A stretch of DNA of 5,924 nucleotides from Planctomycetota bacterium (lineage in GTDB: Bacteria; Planctomycetota; Phycisphaerae; UBA1845; CAIVHJ01), in the NCBI GenBank assembly GCA_022565195.1, contig JADFJZ010000119.1, forward strand, positions 1 through 5,924, read 5' to 3'. Both the position numbers and the translations under genes were made by a program. The notes below the pieces were generated by a model that had not been told where the DNA came from, did no database searches, and saw only the letters and a program-made list of their open reading frames with translations. The first letter of the stretch is position 1, and each line of letters opens with the position of its first letter. Shown in pieces: positions 1 through 5,924 of this stretch.

Positions 1-1553
1 AAGCTGTCCTGCTCGAGTTTGCGGTAGGAATCAAAGTCGGCGTCGTCCGCAGTCTGCATGTCGATCCAATAGTCCGCCGAGTCGTATACGATTTGACCGG
101 TTGTTTGCTTATCGCGGTTGTTGTTTCCGATCCGGTTAATAAGCATCGGAACATTTCCAGGGTAATTGTCGCGAACATACTGCACCGGCACCCGACCGTA
201 CCACGCTTGCCCCGGCTCGTTGGAGATCTTCATTACAAGAAAGTCCTCCAGTGGCTCGGGGAAGTCACGGTTACCATCGCCGTTGGTATCGTTGAAATCG
301 TCCACGTCGCCCAGAGTGATCACAGTGGCGTTCGTGTACGAGTAGCAGTTTATTAGGTCAATGTCGTTAGCGTTCAGTATCACGGCCGGCTCAAAAATTG
401 CGTCATAATACAAGTCATTATCCAAATCGCGGAATCGCTCTCCCGGCGTAAATACGGGGAAGTAGAATGGTGGATTGAAGCCCGGAATCACATCGGGATC
501 ACAAGCCGGCATGCCGTACTGCCCGCAGGTACAGTTCCCGTTGGTGTCTTCATTAACGATGTCGAAATTGCCGTCCCCGTCCAAGTCCTCGTTATCACTT
601 AAATCGCCATCGCAGTTGACGTCCGCGTGCATGAATCCGTCGGCACCTACCAGGCAGCTGTCGCCAGGTAGACAAGGCAGACATGTTTCACCCGCATCCA
701 AATAGCCGTCCGCGTCAACATCTTCAGAAAGCACATCCTCCTGGCCGTTGCCGTTGCAATCCTCCGAATCCGGATCCCAAATCCCATCGCCGTTGCCACA
801 GATCTCGTCCTCCGGGAGGAAGTCGATCGCACAGTTGCCGTTCACATCCTCATTAGTGAGGTCCGCCAGGCCATCGAGGTCCAGATCTTCCACGCCGAGA
901 TCGATCCGGCCATCCCCGTCCAGATCTTCCGTGCCGGCTCCGCTGACACTGGGGTGGTTGTCCGGAATAGCCGGCTGGGGATTCAGTTCGTCGGCCATTG
1001 CCGTGTTGGTAAAATCGGTCTCATAATAGACGAGGAATTCGCGCAGCTCTTCGCCCTCACCGAACTGGAAATCGGGAGCATTGTTCAAGTCAAAATAGCC
1101 GATGCCGTTCGAATCAGTCGACGGGCTGAAAGCCGCTTCGATCGTGTCGACATCGGCCCGTGTCGTTTGAACGTCGCCGATGACAGGATACTGCGGCCAG
1201 GGCAATTCCGGAGTCGCCATCACCTTACCGACCACGTGGACGATCCCGCAGGAGATTTCTTCCCAATACTCCGCGAACGATCCGAATTCGTCGCTGTCCT
1301 CGTTGCCCGTAAAGAAGCCGGTTGGATTGCTGTCCGAGAAATAGAAATGTTCGACGTCGGCAGCACCGGGGAGAGACGTGGGCGGCGTACCCCCGGTCTC
1401 CACGAACGAGCGCGGCATGTTGGCCAGGAAGATGATGAACTTGCGCTCTTCCGCGAAGCCGGCCACGGCGGTGAACAGCGGCCAACTCAACAGGGCCACC
1501 GCGGCGACGTGCCGGGCTAACCGTTTGCTTGTGATGTATGAACGGAGTTTCAT
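1..1553 (-). CDS. Secreted M6-metalloprotease-like protein with calcium-binding Asp/Asn/Gly repeats (3' end beyond the window)
   Basis: The frame is open without a stop from the ATG at 1553 to the left edge: 517 codons, C-terminus missing. Residues 1-34 form a signal peptide: basic start (MKLRSYITSKRLARH), hydrophobic core and a likely signal-peptidase site after AGFA, before EERK. Residues 37-47 (RKFIIFLANMP) and 91-111 (G-S-F-A-E-Y-W...G-I-V-H-V-V-G-K-V) resemble the start of M6 proteases such as immune inhibitor A, where a beta strand 'vlvilvdFpD' is followed by 'S.rdyY.e.SyGk....G.v'. Residues about 209-331 carry repeated acidic motifs such as DLDGDGRID, DVNGNC, DCNGNGQED, DVDADGYLD and DLDGDGNFD, typical of EF-hand-like or thrombospondin-3-like calcium loops; another, DTNGDGNRD, is at 422-430. 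No HExxH zinc motif appears in the visible part, so peptidase activity is unproven. A strong Shine-Dalgarno sequence sets the start. Family assignment is from remembered patterns. It could instead be a non-catalytic surface protein. Confidence 0.8.
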   Translation of the reverse strand, partial: MKLRSYITSKRLARHVAAVALLSWPLFTAVAGFAEERKFIIFLANMPRSFVETGGTPPTSLPGAADVEHFYFSDSNPTGFFTGNEDSDEFGSFAEYWEEISCGIVHVVGKVMATPELPWPQYPVIGDVQTTRADVDTIEAAFSPSTDSNGIGYFDLNNAPDFQFGEGEELREFLVYYETDFTNTAMADELNPQPAIPDNHPSVSGAGTEDLDGDGRIDLGVEDLDLDGLADLTNEDVNGNCAIDFLPEDEICGNGDGIWDPDSEDCNGNGQEDVLSEDVDADGYLDAGETCLPCLPGDSCLVGADGFMHADVNCDGDLSDNEDLDGDGNFDIVNEDTNGNCTCGQYGMPACDPDVIPGFNPPFYFPVFTPGERFRDLDNDLYYDAIFEPAVILNANDIDLINCYSYTNATVITLGDVDDFNDTNGDGNRDFPEPLEDFLVMKISNEPGQAWYGRVPVQYVRDNYPGNVPMLINRIGNNNRDKQTTGQIVYDSADYWIDMQTADDADFDSYRKLEQDS

Positions 1554-2151
1554 GGACGAGCTCCTCCTGTGGAGTTTTGGTCCTGATTACGGCTTCTATA
1601 CTGATTCCATACAGTAGCAGTTTCTAATGCGAGGTGCGCCGGGCCGGCCGCGCGAACGACAACCGTCGCCCCTGACGTGGCCGAAGTAAGAAATCCGGGC
1701 AGTTTGTCTGCGGCTTCCACGATAATGCAGTACTCCCGGGCGACACAGCCAATGGTTCAAACCATCGGTATGTCGCCATCAGAATTGTGGGCGCGTGCAA
1801 GTGACCATCAAGGCCTGCAAGCGACAATTGTGCATCCCTACGCTTCTAATGATATTCGCCCTGTGAACAAAAGCCAATGCGCCGTAAGCATTTATGTGCG
1901 TCCTGAAAGCCGATAACTCGCTGGATTGATGCCCCACGGGGCCTGCGGGCCACTCCGGGGCCGTTCTCCCCGCCAAGGACTGTCGCCGGCCCTCCATCAA
2001 CGTGGGGCTGGGGACACCCGCCGCGGTCGCTTTTTGCGAGCCAACCGCCCGTAGCGAATGGCCGATTCAAGCTCGGGCCAGTTTGGAATGGCGACTTCCT
2101 CCCGACCATTAACGATGGGAAGCCCTCTCCGGCCTGTTAAGATGTACGCCA
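1554..2151. other. Intergenic spacer of about 600 bases, no convincing gene
   Basis: This stretch separates the divergently oriented secreted-protein gene (minus) and tRNA-Leu (plus), so it should hold promoters for both. Short open frames occur on both strands (for example 1677-1916 plus and 1846-2109 minus), but their translations show no recognisable family, are low in complexity and overlap one another. Small symmetric elements are visible: ATGGTT-CA-AACCAT at 1752-1765 and GCCCC-AC-GGGGC at 1931-1942. Neither is followed by a T run, so neither is a classic terminator. A weak -10-like TATAGA lies on the minus strand at 1595-1600, upstream of the secreted-protein gene. A TAAGAT lies at 2138-2143, just before tRNA-Leu. 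No clear -35 partner is seen for either, so no promoter is called. Confidence 0.6.
1563..1568 (-). promoter_or_regulatory. Strong ribosome binding site for the secreted repeat protein
   Basis: The minus strand reads AGGAGG here, a perfect Shine-Dalgarno core, 9 bases before the ATG at 1553. It fixes the start of the secreted protein. It also confirms that the minus strand, not the overlapping plus-strand frames, is the coding one. Confidence 0.85.
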
Positions 2152-2233
2152 GCGCGAGTGGCGGAATTGGCAGACGCGCAGGACTTAGGATCCTGTGGGG
2201 CAACCCGTGGGAGTTCGAATCTCTCCTCGCGCA
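2152..2233 (+). tRNA. tRNA-Leu, anticodon UAG
   Basis: An 82-base class II tRNA that folds fully by eye. The acceptor stem is GCGCGAG (2152-2158) with CTCGCGC (2226-2232), and the discriminator is A at 2233, as usual for Leu. The anticodon stem is CAGGA/TCCTG around the loop CTTAGGA, giving anticodon TAG (2186-2188), which reads CUA and related Leu codons. A long variable arm (GGG-CAA-CCC core, 2196-2208) confirms the Leu/Ser/Tyr class. The T arm is GGGAG-TTCGAAT-CTCTC with one G-U pair. CCA is not encoded: GTG follows the discriminator, so CCA must be added enzymatically. It lies 86 bases before the likely methyltransferase start on the same strand with no obvious terminator between. Confidence 0.97.
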
Positions 2234-2319
2234 GTGGCGTGAACCGTTGTTCGGGAAGTGTGAAGCTCAGAAACGAAGAGCTGTTGGCAACGACCGATGA
2301 GGACGGGGCGCCCCAGAGT

Positions 2320-3135
2320 ATGCCTGTGCATTCGATCTTCTGTTGTGACAATCTCAAGTTGCTGCAGCAGCAGCCGGATGACTCGATCGACTTGATCTAC
2401 ATCGACCCCCCTTTCTGCACCGGTCGAGAGCGCTCACACCGCCGCACTGCCAACCTCTTTGAAGACCGTTGGTCCGGCGGACTGGATGAGTTTTTGGAGT
2501 TCCTCGGTTTGCGCCTAAGACAGATGCGTCGCGTGCTCCGGCCGAGCGGCACCATCTATGTTCATCTCGACTGGCATGCCTCCCATTACGTCAAGATCCT
2601 CATGGACAAAATCTTTGGATATGACAACTTCCTTAACGAAGTGATCTGGCACTACCGGACAGGCGGAGTTTCAAAGCGGTGGTTCGGCCGCAAGCACGAT
2701 ACAATACTTGTCTACGCGAAGGATCGCGGGCAGCACACTTTCAATGTCCAGCGTGACGGATCATTTCGCACGAAGGGTCTGATGACCGATGCGGACGGCC
2801 TACCATACAAGACCACACGGAACGGCCGGCTGTACTTCGACAAAGACGGTCCAGCGGTTACAGACGTGTGGGACATTCCCTTTCTGAGCACGGTCGCACT
2901 GGAACGCACGGGTTATCCCTCCCAGAAACCCAAGGCCTTGCTCAGGAGGATCATCGCGGCGAGTTCTGACGAAGGGCAACTCGTGGCGGATTTCTTCTGT
3001 GGCTCCGGGACCACGCTGGTTGTGGCCGCCGAAATGAACCGGGCCGTTCTCGGTTGCGACATCAACCCCGAGGCCGTCCGTATCGCAAACAGCCGCTTGA
3101 AAGACACATTCGCTAAGCCCGTTTCGACAGCATGA
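2320..3135 (+). CDS. Orphan beta-class DNA methyltransferase (N6_N4_Mtase family), probably adenine-N6
   Basis: With the ATG at 2320 the product is 271 residues. It transfers a methyl group from S-adenosylmethionine to a base in a specific DNA site. Catalytic motif IV, DPPF, is at residues 29-32 (context IDLIYIDPPF); DPP-type motifs are typical of adenine-N6 enzymes. The variable stretch at about 136-191 would be the target-recognition region. The SAM-binding half follows: YPSQKP near 199-204, motif I DFFCGSGTT at 224-232, and GCDIN near 245-249 (motif II acidic residue). The order IV, recognition region, X, I defines the beta class. Start choice: the frame stays open back into tRNA-Leu (GTG at 2158), but that part only translates the tRNA. 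ATG 2320 places the usual short N-terminus before motif IV, though its ribosome site is poor; TTG at 2284 is possible. No restriction enzyme or specificity subunit is nearby, so it is probably a solitary methylase. Confidence 0.88.
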   Translation: MPVHSIFCCDNLKLLQQQPDDSIDLIYIDPPFCTGRERSHRRTANLFEDRWSGGLDEFLEFLGLRLRQMRRVLRPSGTIYVHLDWHASHYVKILMDKIFGYDNFLNEVIWHYRTGGVSKRWFGRKHDTILVYAKDRGQHTFNVQRDGSFRTKGLMTDADGLPYKTTRNGRLYFDKDGPAVTDVWDIPFLSTVALERTGYPSQKPKALLRRIIAASSDEGQLVADFFCGSGTTLVVAAEMNRAVLGCDINPEAVRIANSRLKDTFAKPVSTA

Positions 3136-3228
3136 TTTATGAAGAGCGAACTTGACGAAGAGCCGTCGCCGGTGCGTCGTTCAAGGCCGAGGATTGTTTG
3201 CCGTTCCCCGCGGTAGGCCTGCCATGAG

Positions 3229-3254
3229 CGAGTCCGCCGCAGGCGGGCGACTCG
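3229..3254. repeat. Strong imperfect inverted repeat (hairpin) just past the tRNA-Ala 3' end
   Basis: CGAGT (3229-3233) pairs with ACTCG (3250-3254), and CCGCC (3234-3238) pairs with GGCGG (3242-3246) over a GCA loop. This gives ten G+C-rich base pairs with a three-base bulge (3247-3249). It lies two bases beyond the tRNA-Ala discriminator on the minus strand and about 90 bases after the methyltransferase stop on the plus strand. It may act as a processing signal or weak terminator for either, but neither side has a T run. It could also be one copy of a dispersed palindromic repeat. Confidence 0.5.
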
Positions 3255-3256
3255 AA

Positions 3257-3329
<73 letters not shown>

Positions 3330-3373
3330 ATTGAATGATCAGCAGCCAATCGAGGCCGCCAAAGGAGCGCAAG

Positions 3374-4585
3374 TTATCCTGTTATCGCGGGTTTTTCAAC
3401 CTTGATTTGTCTGAGTCGCGGCCAGGAGCGCGTCGCCCTCATGTACAAGGGGCGGACCAGCAACCGGGCCAATCGCCACAGGTGGGCGCAGGCCGGCCAG
3501 CCGGGATGCCGCCAGGGATACACGCCGCCCATGTGGTCGCGATCCGGAAACATCATGGCCCACAGGTAGCCCAGCCGAAATCGCACGCCCGGCGCCGTCA
3601 GCATGTTCACGGCAACGTGCGCCAGCGGGTGGGCGCTGTCACGCGGCGCCTGGGCCAGCACCAGACGATCTCGCCATGCGGCATGACAAGAGAACTCGGC
3701 AACTCGATCCCGCAACTTGACGTCGTCGAACAAATCAGCAGTTTGGCTCAGTGCCCTCTGCACCGCCAGCGACAAACTCCACGCTGTCGCTTTCTCTTGA
3801 ACCTTTCTCCAGTCGATGCGGTCGGCGTGAGCCTGGACAAAACGGAATATGTCGTAAAGCCAAAGCAATCGAACATTGCCGTGGATGGTCGAGTGAGCCG
3901 CAAGGTGAATGACCATGTTCTCGTTGGATGGATGAAGCACGTCAACACCGTCCATTTTCGCTCGGATTGGATCGTCCCACATTCCATCCACTGGCACTGT
4001 CTGCATGTATCGCAGTGGGCGAAACAAGTGTGCGTGTACTTCGAGCCGGCATCGCGGTGGGCCGGGAATCTCATATTCTCGTTCGTAGTAATATCGCGGG
4101 AAGAAATCGCGCCGGACAAGTGGCCGACCGGCGCGGCACCCGGCACTCATGAGCAGTTGATCGGCTGCGGAAACATCCGCCGGGCGGACAAGGATATCGA
4201 TGTCCGTCATGGGCCTGAGTTCGGGGCGGTCGTACGTTGAGAGATTCAAGGCAGCGCCCTTGAGCACCAAGAAGGGTAGATGTGCCTCATTGAGCCTTGA
4301 GGCCAGAGTTGCAAACGTCCGAACCGCGCCAAGATTCTCGCCTGCGGCATGCGTGGCTTGGAGCTGCAACATCCGCTCATGGTCTGCATCAATGTTCAGC
4401 GACAGCTCTTGGATTGCTTGTAAGAACAACCCCGCCGTGCGGGACTTTAGCGCTGCCTTGACTTGATTGGCGGAGCAAGGTCCGTCCTTGGCTTCTCTGA
4501 GGCTCATGAGTGACGGGTCAACTGCGAGTACCGCTGCGAGGAGGCGGATCGGATCAGTTCGGTGATGGTCAGCGCTGCCGTGCAT
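3374..4585 (-). CDS. Nucleotidyltransferase family protein (NTP_transf_5 / PF14907-like), last gene of the PqqD-kinase operon
   Basis: With the ATG at 4585 the product is 403 residues; a GTG directly before it (4588) would add one. Numbered from that GTG, the catalytic core shows FLVLKGAAL (106-114), then the double-aspartate motif TDIDILV (128-134, D129 and D131, expected metal ligands of the polymerase-beta-like fold). A possible third carboxylate is in LEVHAHL (E183). The helical motif HLAAHSTIHG...LLWLYDI (228-247) is typical of this family. Such enzymes transfer a nucleotide from an NTP to an unknown acceptor. There are no membrane segments, so it is probably cytoplasmic. AAAGGA at 4596-4591 overlaps the stop of the kinase gene and sits 5 bases before the ATG, favouring that start and indicating translational coupling. 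The substrate is unknown; its neighbours suggest a peptide- or protein-modification role. Family assignment is from recognised motifs, not a search. Confidence 0.88.
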   Translation of the reverse strand: MHGSADHHRTDPIRLLAAVLAVDPSLMSLREAKDGPCSANQVKAALKSRTAGLFLQAIQELSLNIDADHERMLQLQATHAAGENLGAVRTFATLASRLNEAHLPFLVLKGAALNLSTYDRPELRPMTDIDILVRPADVSAADQLLMSAGCRAGRPLVRRDFFPRYYYEREYEIPGPPRCRLEVHAHLFRPLRYMQTVPVDGMWDDPIRAKMDGVDVLHPSNENMVIHLAAHSTIHGNVRLLWLYDIFRFVQAHADRIDWRKVQEKATAWSLSLAVQRALSQTADLFDDVKLRDRVAEFSCHAAWRDRLVLAQAPRDSAHPLAHVAVNMLTAPGVRFRLGYLWAMMFPDRDHMGGVYPWRHPGWPACAHLWRLARLLVRPLYMRATRSWPRLRQIKVEKPAITG

Positions 4586-4590
4586 CACAG

Positions 4591-4596
4591 TCCTTT
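4591..4596 (-). promoter_or_regulatory. Ribosome binding site of the nucleotidyltransferase, overlapping the kinase stop codon
   Basis: The minus strand reads AAAGGA, 5 bases before the ATG at 4585 and only 2 bases before the GTG at 4588. This supports the ATG as the start. Its first two bases lie inside the kinase stop codon TAA (4597-4595), so ribosomes finishing the kinase could re-initiate here. Confidence 0.65.
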
Positions 4597-5491
4597 AGGC
4601 GACGTGCTGCCGCGCCTTGTCGATTTCACATTGCCCGGACACAAGCGATTCAAGGGCGTCGCAGGATTCCTCGACCGAGCCGAGATTGAACTCGAAACAC
4701 TGCGCTTGGCGAGCAAGGGCCACGGCGGTATCAAACGCTTGTCGGCCAAGGTTCTCAGTGTTCAGGCCGCAACGATAGAGGGTCATCGCCGCCTCAGGTG
4801 CGGTGAGTCGACTCCATCGCAATGGCATGTTGGTACGCCGCGACAAAAAGAGCACCGACTTGACCGGGCAAGGCCCCCCTATTCCGCCGCTGCCGGCTTC
4901 CGTCGGCGTCACGTAAGCGAACTGTCGCATACGCTTGCCATCGGACCACTCGCCCGAAATCAGCGGTAGATTGAGTTCTTGGATATGGTCGCGGCCGGCG
5001 TTCTTGATGCTCAGTGCCTTAGGGAACGGGTAGACAAGCAGTGATTGGGGCTCGATCAGCGCGAATTCGTCACAGAGATAGCTCCAGCCGCGGGCCATCA
5101 ACGCCGCCGCCAACGTCGACTTGCCGGTGCCCGATTTTCCTGTGAAAACCACGGCGCGGTTTTGGTACGACATCACTCCGGCGTGCAGTTGAAAGAACGT
5201 GTTTTGCGTCAGCATTGTTTGATGATTGAGGGCGGCTTCAAGCTGGGGCATCACGCCCCGTTCATCGCGGCCGGCGACATAAGCCTCTCCGTTACACTGC
5301 ACGACGTACTCCGCAGCAGCCCATGGCTTGGCCTTTCGCCGCACGATCTTCATGTGCAGCGCCGTGTCGCAGGGATCCTCTGTTCGATAGCAACCATAGA
5401 TGCGATCGAACACGCGCACGCATTCCTCCGAGCACGATTGGAGACTGACTGCGACGACTCCGATGCGATAATGGCGGGTTTCAGTGGTCAT
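4595..5491 (-). CDS. HPr-kinase-like P-loop kinase (HprK-related kinase A type)
   Basis: The product is 298 residues. The central nucleotide-binding core is clear: FFQLHAGVM (99-107), the Walker A loop GKSGTGKST (118-126), then ALMARGWSYLCDEFALIEP (130-148) with the acidic pair D141/E142, and YPFPKALSIK (154-163). This LHA...GKSGTGKSTLAAAL..RGW.YL.DE pattern belongs to proteins related to the C-terminal domain of HPr kinase. I do not see the arginine/glycine-rich signature loop of true HprK/phosphorylase, and no HPr or PTS gene is present, so the target is probably not HPr. Related kinases phosphorylate a serine of lasso-peptide precursors (paeninodin type), and others sit beside PqqD-like genes. 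The gene follows the PqqD-like gene by 30 bases and precedes the nucleotidyltransferase with only 6-9 bases between. The ATG at 5491 lacks a clear ribosome site; coupling from upstream may serve. The acceptor is unknown. Confidence 0.9.
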   Translation of the reverse strand: MTTETRHYRIGVVAVSLQSCSEECVRVFDRIYGCYRTEDPCDTALHMKIVRRKAKPWAAAEYVVQCNGEAYVAGRDERGVMPQLEAALNHQTMLTQNTFFQLHAGVMSYQNRAVVFTGKSGTGKSTLAAALMARGWSYLCDEFALIEPQSLLVYPFPKALSIKNAGRDHIQELNLPLISGEWSDGKRMRQFAYVTPTEAGSGGIGGPCPVKSVLFLSRRTNMPLRWSRLTAPEAAMTLYRCGLNTENLGRQAFDTAVALARQAQCFEFNLGSVEESCDALESLVSGQCEIDKARQHVA

Positions 5492-5521
5492 GGGGATTCG
5501 ACCGGCAAGCGGAGGCTGACG

Positions 5522-5794
5522 CTATGCGGCGGGTATGCCCGTGAGTAGTTGCTCCTCCTTTAACTGCTCCAGCACGGTCCGGGCGTCCTGCAGGGCGGTG
5601 TCGAACTCGACTTCGAATTGTTCCGTGAGCACCCGCGCTATGTCTTCAAGCGAGCGCGTGCCATCGCAAAGCTCCCAAATGAGGGTGGCGCTCACGTTTA
5701 GTCGGTGCGTGCGATCGACGACCGGATCATAAACGAGCACTTCATCGTCCATGCCGTGTTGAATCAAATGATCCATTTTTCTGGGTCTGGCCAT
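5522..5794 (-). CDS. PqqD family peptide-binding protein, first gene of the operon
   Basis: The product is 90 residues, the usual size for a stand-alone PqqD. Diagnostic positions are VLVYDPVVDRTHRLN (19-33), then SATLIWELCDGTRS (35-48), then a helical C-terminal half (DIARVLTEQF 51-60, DARTVLEQLKEEQLL 70-84). This is the winged-helix RiPP recognition element fold, which binds the leader of a ribosomally made peptide and presents it to a modifying enzyme. Here the probable partners are the kinase and nucleotidyltransferase directly downstream, but neither a radical SAM enzyme nor a lasso cyclase is visible. The start at 5794 is the longest ATG; a second ATG at codon 7 (5776) has no better ribosome site. 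The family call is strong; the identity of the client peptide is unknown. Confidence 0.9.
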   Translation of the reverse strand: MARPRKMDHLIQHGMDDEVLVYDPVVDRTHRLNVSATLIWELCDGTRSLEDIARVLTEQFEVEFDTALQDARTVLEQLKEEQLLTGIPAA

Positions 5795-5924
5795 GATCCG
5801 TCTCGGCGTAGTTAGGAATCAAAACCGGAACGCCCGTCGCGGACGCTTACTCAGGCGGGCTGGGGCCTGCCGTTAGCCCGGTTACCGCAAGTGCCGTTCG
5901 CGCCGAAACGCTCCACACGATCGG
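5795..5924 (-). other. Upstream region of the PqqD-kinase-nucleotidyltransferase operon, unassigned
   Basis: These 130 bases precede the PqqD-like gene on the minus strand. All three minus frames are open from the right edge for a short way, ending at stops at 5882-5884, 5851-5853 and 5847-5849. The C-terminus of an upstream gene could therefore end here, but the sequence does not say which frame, if any, is coding. No recognisable family, promoter or terminator was found. Confidence 0.35.

Follow-up and report, generated by a model that had tools for sequence, protein, structure and literature searches.

Gene content of the window

The subject of this analysis is a 5,924-nt stretch of DNA from a Planctomycetota bacterium (assembly GCA_022565195.1, contig JADFJZ010000119.1, positions 1 to 5,924), hereafter the window, and in particular a cluster of three genes near its end that encode a PqqD-family protein, a kinase related to HPr kinase (HprK) and a nucleotidyltransferase, preceded by the end of a gene for their likely peptide substrate. 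A first-pass annotation of the window had described the three genes as tightly packed and co-oriented. This was confirmed, all three lying on the minus strand with identical outer coordinates and separated by gaps of 30 nt (PqqD to kinase) and 6 nt (kinase to nucleotidyltransferase), and profile searches placed each gene in a named family in agreement with the original assignments (Table 1). The listed start of the nucleotidyltransferase is a GTG at position 4588; the related proteins P0104 and P0105 start one residue later, at an ATG. Counts of promoters and terminators in the window were close to the means of shuffled sequence (1 against 1.1 and 3 against 2.2, respectively).

Table 1. Features of the window, with the precursor gene and the three-gene cluster first. 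RRE, recognition element of ribosomally synthesized and post-translationally modified peptides (RiPPs).
Feature	Coordinates	Strand	Evidence
3' end of precursor (client) gene, 5' part beyond window edge	complement(5847..>5924)	-	profile and match to locus L100
PqqD-family protein, predicted leader-binding RRE	5522..5794	-	PF05402, E 6.7e-16, 58.8 bits (cut-off 23.4)
HprK-related kinase (HPr kinase/PEPCK fold), predicted core Ser/Thr phosphorylation	4595..5491	-	TIGR04352 HprK_rel_A, E 8.9e-38
NTP_transf_5 nucleotidyltransferase	3374..4588	-	PF14907, E 3.6e-43, 148.4 bits (cut-off 31.2)
tRNA-Ala (anticodon CGC)	3256-3330	-	
DNA N6/N4 methyltransferase	2158-3135	+	PF01555, E 3.5e-48
tRNA-Leu (anticodon TAG)	2152-2233	+	
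Secreted-looking Asp-rich protein, open at window edge	3-1553	-	

Scanning of genome contigs with 23 aligned kinases yielded 64 relative loci, and the trio proved to be conserved across the resulting 65 loci (relatives plus window), contrary to the possibility allowed for at the outset that the genes are not conserved together. A PqqD match is located within 700 nt of the kinase gene and on the same strand in 60 of the 65 loci, and a nucleotidyltransferase is found near the kinase in 54, either within 700 nt downstream (36 loci) or within 4.5 kb upstream (18 loci). An earlier tally of 55 loci with all three genes may overstate the presence of PqqD, since the profile employed had taken in precursor sequence from the L005 fusion described below; its match in L011 is a precursor rather than a PqqD protein. 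The named relatives are mostly Planctomycetota, with exceptions in Armatimonadota, Magnetococcales, Myxococcaceae and one locus, L048, labelled Alphaproteobacteria. The L048 system is closely similar to that of planctomycetal L040, and its genome, G028, falls within the order searched around genome G037; the label is probably that of a mislabelled record. No full-length kinase of more than 37% identity was detected in 397 genomes of the class, 392 of the phylum (at E 1e-50 only) or 114 of the order, and a search of viral contigs returned no closer DNA covering the full precursor of the window. Protein clusters at 75-95% identity do exist (P0001-P0010).

The truncated precursor gene

The first-pass annotation saw no client peptide and left the substrate open. 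Both points require revision, since a client gene ends directly upstream of the PqqD gene, with its last 25 codons inside the window, and a dedicated ribosomal precursor is the likely substrate of the trio. Read inwards from the window edge, the minus strand gives PIVWSVSARTALAVTGLTAGPSPPE; the stop is at 5847 and leaves 52 nt to the start of PqqD. From the Pro of a [Y/F]xxP motif onwards the precursor end comprises PIVWSVSARTALA, a predicted AxA cleavage site, and then VTGLTAGPSPPE and the stop codon. Scored with a profile made from the C-terminal halves of 56 other precursors (window excluded), this tail came first (16.5 bits, E 0.0095; next best 13.6 bits) among 21,285 stop-ended 25-residue tails, 143 of them from the window and 21,142 from elsewhere with known precursor tails removed. 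In addition, the tail is identical to the precursor of locus L100 at 9 of 13 positions without gaps, a match equalled by none of 5000 shuffles; L100 is from genome G037, the second-best kinase match in the genome search. The distance from the end of the precursor frame to the kinase, 359 bp, falls within the range of about 160-430 bp seen in relatives whose precursor adjoins PqqD.

Less weight attaches to two further scores. A first profile of the full leader gave the window fragment 8.7 bits (E 2.1 in 28,292 segments), a low value because half of the model lies beyond the window edge, which the C-terminal half profile resolved. Against 51 database precursors, 3 of 500 shuffles of the fragment reached its best score (45); the query alignment there had held the window fragment itself, and the assignment therefore rests on the C-terminal ranking and the L100 match.

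The precursor family

In most relatives a small protein is encoded upstream of PqqD, or ahead of a gene for a DsbA-VKOR protein. These proteins share a common build. An RRxF motif is followed by a hydrophobic stretch that contains [Y/F]xxPx[V/I] and by an AxA end, after which comes a tail that is either a short Ser-rich core of 5-14 residues (25 in L100) or a Cys-rich, knottin-like core. Profile searches identified such a precursor in 55 of the 64 relatives, the tail being Cys-rich in 23 and short in 32. Among the nine others, two precursors were recognized by eye, in L013 (a truncated Cys-rich tail at the contig edge) and L064 (Myxococcaceae, divergent), while in L015, L026 and L028 the start coincides with a contig edge or lies close to one, and L031 is partly masked. 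A set of 5.8 billion proteins was also searched by profile, with scoring confined to the 7,990 candidates that had the most words in common; the 51 proteins obtained were all of precursor form.

In 47 of 58 precursors, including that of the window, the Pro of the leader motif occupies position -13 relative to the AxA end; this spacing was the first tried by the counting script, and L043 was dropped from the count. A Ser or Thr occurs within the first three core residues in all 28 unique short cores and in 18 of 22 unique Cys-rich cores, as raw counts with no null. Protein P0245 and the C-terminus of the L002 fusion gave weak, sub-threshold matches to the animal knottin families PF07740 and PF06357, and the Cys-rich core matches are consistent with a cystine-knot pattern.

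Co-occurrence, fusions and partner genes

The association between precursor and kinase was examined in 114 genomes of one order, of which 65 had a kinase profile match (E 1e-10) and 63 a precursor match (E 1e-3). Both were present in 61 genomes and neither in 47; four had the kinase only (G003, G095, G324, G380) and two the precursor only (G350, G762), giving a Fisher probability of 1e-24 that is uncorrected for kinship. G095 was counted as kinase-positive on a 64-position match only, and since the precursor profile was built from kinase-near precursors, unlike ones would be missed. Of 75 precursor matches, 57 are within 6 kb of a kinase gene, 56 of these on the kinase strand, with 52 upstream and five downstream, the latter being the position occupied in kinase fusions. 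The remaining 18 are located on other contigs (14) or far off on the same contig (4), the same-contig cases including G006, G333 and G397; clients acting in trans, or broken contigs, are possible explanations for these.

The precursor is also found fused to the enzymes: to PqqD in L005, to the kinase in L017, L032, L043 and L054, and in L002 to a nucleotidyltransferase that itself carries a SET domain. Further fusions join PqqD to the kinase (P0102) and DsbA-VKOR to PqqD (L022, 8042-9964). Start codons up to 60 codons before the RR motif were checked in the four kinase-precursor fusions and in the nucleotidyltransferase-SET and PqqD fusions; an ATG with a weak GAGG site is present in L032 only, and the ATG found in L017 and in L043 lacks such a site. 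Most of the fusions therefore appear to be real. In borosin-type RiPPs the substrate peptide is fused to the C-terminus of the modifying N-methyltransferase, and some relatives of the window system similarly have the peptide at the C-terminus of a modifying enzyme; here, however, the enzymes are a kinase or a nucleotidyltransferase, and the window's own genes are unfused.

The partner genes follow the type of core. A DsbA-VKOR gene accompanies 18 of 23 Cys-rich cores but none of 32 short cores in the relatives; the tabulated 33 short-core loci include the window, which was admitted by name and is too short to inform on this point. That tally misses the L022 fusion, in a locus without a found precursor, and DsbA-VKOR is also present in L013, L021, L028 and L031, where no precursor was found by profile. 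A C-terminal SET domain (PF00856) is present on the nucleotidyltransferase in L002, L008, L052 and other loci in which that gene comes first, and SET occurs in 10 of 23 Cys-rich loci as opposed to 2 of 33 short-core loci, window included. In L100, two B12-binding radical SAM genes lie between precursor and PqqD (7029-10277, minus strand). Consequently, the observation in the first-pass annotation that the usual RiPP partners are absent holds for the 5.9-kb window but not for its relatives, given the radical SAM genes of L100 and DsbA-VKOR in most Cys-rich loci. The co-occurrence, the fusions, the way in which partner chemistry follows the core, and the placement of the radical SAM genes within the L100 locus together make the peptide the likely substrate.

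Predicted leader recognition and conserved residues

A profile of the window PqqD protein and 19 relatives matched, among structures in the PDB, the RREs of lasso peptide systems most closely (TfuB1, 4.1e-10; TbiB1, 8.1e-8), followed by PqqD (6.4e-7) and LppB (9x8z, 1.9e-6). Counted by hand through the profile alignment, Asn33 and Asp70 of the window protein align with N33 and D70 of LppB. Position 70 is Asp or Glu in 30 of 38 loci with Tyr leaders and in none of 11 with Phe leaders (10 if L005 is counted once rather than twice); the count omits the second, gapped PqqD of L002 and loci L011, L043, L053, L055, L057, L058 and L063, for which no Tyr or Phe was assigned. In the leaders of L055, L057, L058 and L063, Lys replaces the aromatic residue three before the Pro, and residue 70 of the PqqD protein is Arg, Arg, Cys and Asp, respectively; a different mode of leader recognition is perhaps employed in these loci.

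The twin-arginine and AxA motifs also resemble a twin-arginine translocation (Tat) signal, and one weak match to PF10518 (P0274, E 0.033, below cut-off) and the suitability of DsbA-VKOR for exported Cys-rich proteins point the same way. Accordingly, the peptides could be ordinary Tat-exported products and the trio a folding or quality-control device akin to a signal-binding chaperone, in which PqqD masks the twin-arginine signal and kinase and nucleotidyltransferase, instead of modifying the peptide, regulate PqqD or export. This seems unlikely, since the precursor is fused to the kinase and to the nucleotidyltransferase-SET protein and not to PqqD alone, the PqqD profile is closest to leader-binding lasso RREs, and homologous kinases modify the peptide itself in the lasso and linear polyphosphorylated peptide (LPP) systems (PMC9266682, PMC13381572).

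The motifs of HprK-like peptide kinases, namely P-loop, His and a pair of acidic residues, are present in the kinase, with H103, K124, D141 and E142 invariant in 51 sequences, and its AlphaFold model (mean predicted local distance difference test score, pLDDT, 92.1) matches PEPCK and HPr kinases. In the nucleotidyltransferase, D129 and D131 of the DxD motif are invariant in 42 sequences, and the best fold matches are MenT toxins. The latter could be taken to indicate a toxin-antitoxin or defence unit of MenT-like nucleotidyltransferase and kinase, with the peptide incidental, but this is very improbable, although no defence library was searched, given that the unit includes a PqqD protein of the leader-binding type, that the peptide occurs in fusions with each of the three proteins, and that peptide and kinase co-occur genome-wide. 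Alternatively, the peptide might serve as primer or anchor for a surface polysaccharide, the phosphorylated peptide receiving a sugar- or polyol-phosphate from the nucleotidyltransferase-fold enzyme (as with FKRP), to be extended by neighbouring glycosyltransferases. This idea is a little weaker than that of a Tat quality-control device: there is no glycosyltransferase among the five main open reading frames (ORFs) of the window, a glycosyltransferase cluster is missing from 51 of the 65 loci, and the best matches of the enzyme are nucleotidyltransferases.

Proposed function and relation to described systems

The proposal in the first-pass annotation that the set tags a peptide is thus supported, by the family assignments and by conservation of the trio. 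We consider it probable that trio and precursor constitute a planctomycete RiPP-type operon, with leader binding by PqqD, phosphorylation of the core by the kinase and decoration of the phosphate by the nucleotidyltransferase, the last two steps being proposed from homologues. In such a scheme the precursor, whose gene begins beyond the window, would consist of a Tat-like leader (RRxF, hydrophobic [Y/F]xxPx[V/I], AxA) and the short core. PqqD would bind the YxxP motif as do lasso and LPP RREs and present the peptide to the kinase, for phosphorylation of a Ser or Thr near the core start; the nucleotidyltransferase would then place a nucleotidyl or sugar(-phosphate) group on the core phosphate, after which the leader would be cut behind AxA and the peptide exported.

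The planctomycete operon would work much like that for LPPs, the closest described system, known from the lpp cluster of Paenibacillus alginolyticus and stated to be restricted to Bacillota (PMC13381572), as opposed to Planctomycetota here. Both have a discrete RRE, an HprK-like kinase and an NTP transferase, with no macrolactam cyclase in the core. The LPP leader (consensus YxxPxVLxHQxIxFETxxS; PMC13381572) has its Pro and Val at -13 and -11 from the cleavage site, where a signal-peptidase-like enzyme cuts; here, Pro is likewise at -13, and the AxA end is at that place. The window leader has both P-13 and V-11, its aromatic position lying beyond the edge. The planctomycete leaders differ in their Tat-like RR motif and in the absence of HQxIxFET, also from the window leader, and the cores in being short or knottin-like; SET, DsbA-VKOR and radical SAM partners are peculiar to the window's relatives. 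The five main ORFs of the window, which breaks off within the precursor gene, include neither the SpI peptidase nor the MsbA-like transporter of the LPP cluster. In the precursors of paeninodin and LPP, Ser is the residue that homologous kinases phosphorylate, and PsmN has been linked to hexose addition on phospho-Ser (PMC9266682; PMC13381572). The phosphorylated lasso peptides paeninodin and pseudomycoidin (PMC9266682) share the HprK-like kinase, the PqqD-type RRE and, for pseudomycoidin, the nucleotidyltransferase. A lasso product was considered and set aside. The five main ORFs of the window, which stops at 5924, contain no macrolactam cyclase and no leader protease (B2) domain, and the predicted leader end is AxA rather than a penultimate Thr.

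The same three genes, adjacent and in the same order, are labelled in NCBIfam as the HPr-rel-A system (TIGR04352 HprK_rel_A, TIGR04353 PqqD_rel_X), whose model names mention no client gene. Neither window protein reaches its cut-off (130 bits for the kinase, with 200 required; 31.8 bits for PqqD, with 35 required), whereas an annotated Sphingomonas example with the same three-gene layout (L108) is above both. The gene just upstream in L108 has an RR...AxA stretch (SRR...PALA), and a Leisingera locus (L110) has RREILQKAGRFAAVTTPAV...AVAK upstream of kinase and nucleotidyltransferase. On a Gemmatirosa plasmid (L111, 5630-7112), a Cys-rich tail is attached to PqqD, and the neighbouring MauE protein may be a disulfide partner of independent origin. 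Open-licence full-text searches returned no paper under the system's names, and term searches found neither 'HPr' nor 'kinase' in the available text of two RRE-mining papers.

Several observations weigh against a RiPP-type operon, or limit its reach. No precursor was found by profile or by eye in L009, L021 and L022, and the nearest kinase relative with DNA (L099, genome G324) keeps kinase and nucleotidyltransferase but shows neither PqqD nor precursor in the 9 kb read, and no precursor match in the genome. The RR and Tyr of the window leader are predicted only, the precursor being truncated at the edge. The putative precursors of L108, L110 and L111 lack the aromatic residue of [Y/F]xxP, for which reason these loci are candidates only. 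The acidic pair of the kinase is Asp-Glu, in contrast to Asp-Asp in lasso kinases as reported in a review, and in the LPP experiment no effect of LppN could be detected (PMC13381572). The kinase fusions place the RR leader internally, a poor fit to an N-terminal Tat signal, such that the Tat reading is by motif only. DsbA-VKOR is lacking from five Cys-rich loci, namely L037 and the four kinase fusions. Finally, the associations of DsbA-VKOR with core type and of residue 70 with leader type are uncorrected for kinship; tree-based tests of the two found no contrary pair among the 4 and 5, respectively, on all branches, but are without significance because only two pairs each are on supported branches.

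A wider and more tentative possibility, which we hold to be somewhat less than even, is that these loci represent an undescribed, planctomycete-wide RiPP class, to which divergent candidates from Myxococcota, Gemmatimonadota and Alphaproteobacteria may also belong. One leader, with an RRE-binding motif inside a Tat-type signal, might deliver cores ranging from 5-residue Ser peptides to disulfide-rich knottins; kinase and nucleotidyltransferase would attach a nucleotide or sugar, through a phosphodiester link, to a Ser or Thr early in the core, and maturation would end with oxidation (DsbA-VKOR), SET or radical SAM chemistry according to lineage. The precursor described here is a proposed substrate for a gene trio labelled in a public database and unexplained in the open-licence literature searched. 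It connects NTP_transf_5 enzymes with concrete peptides, in fused and free enzyme-peptide pairs; the relatives point to bacterial knottin-like peptides with their own oxidase, and the leader suggests that a signal of the secretion type may also act as the leader of a RiPP.

Neighbouring genes

The Asp-rich protein at the far end of the window contains repeated DxDxDG-like stretches; it matches no Pfam family, an M6-protease domain giving no more than a trace (E 0.37). On the downstream side of the operon, the tRNA-Ala gene adjoins the operon end and, together with tRNA-Leu, flanks the DNA methyltransferase gene, which is unaccompanied by a restriction gene among the five scanned ORFs. The listed start of the methyltransferase overlaps tRNA-Leu, and its true start is therefore probably further in.

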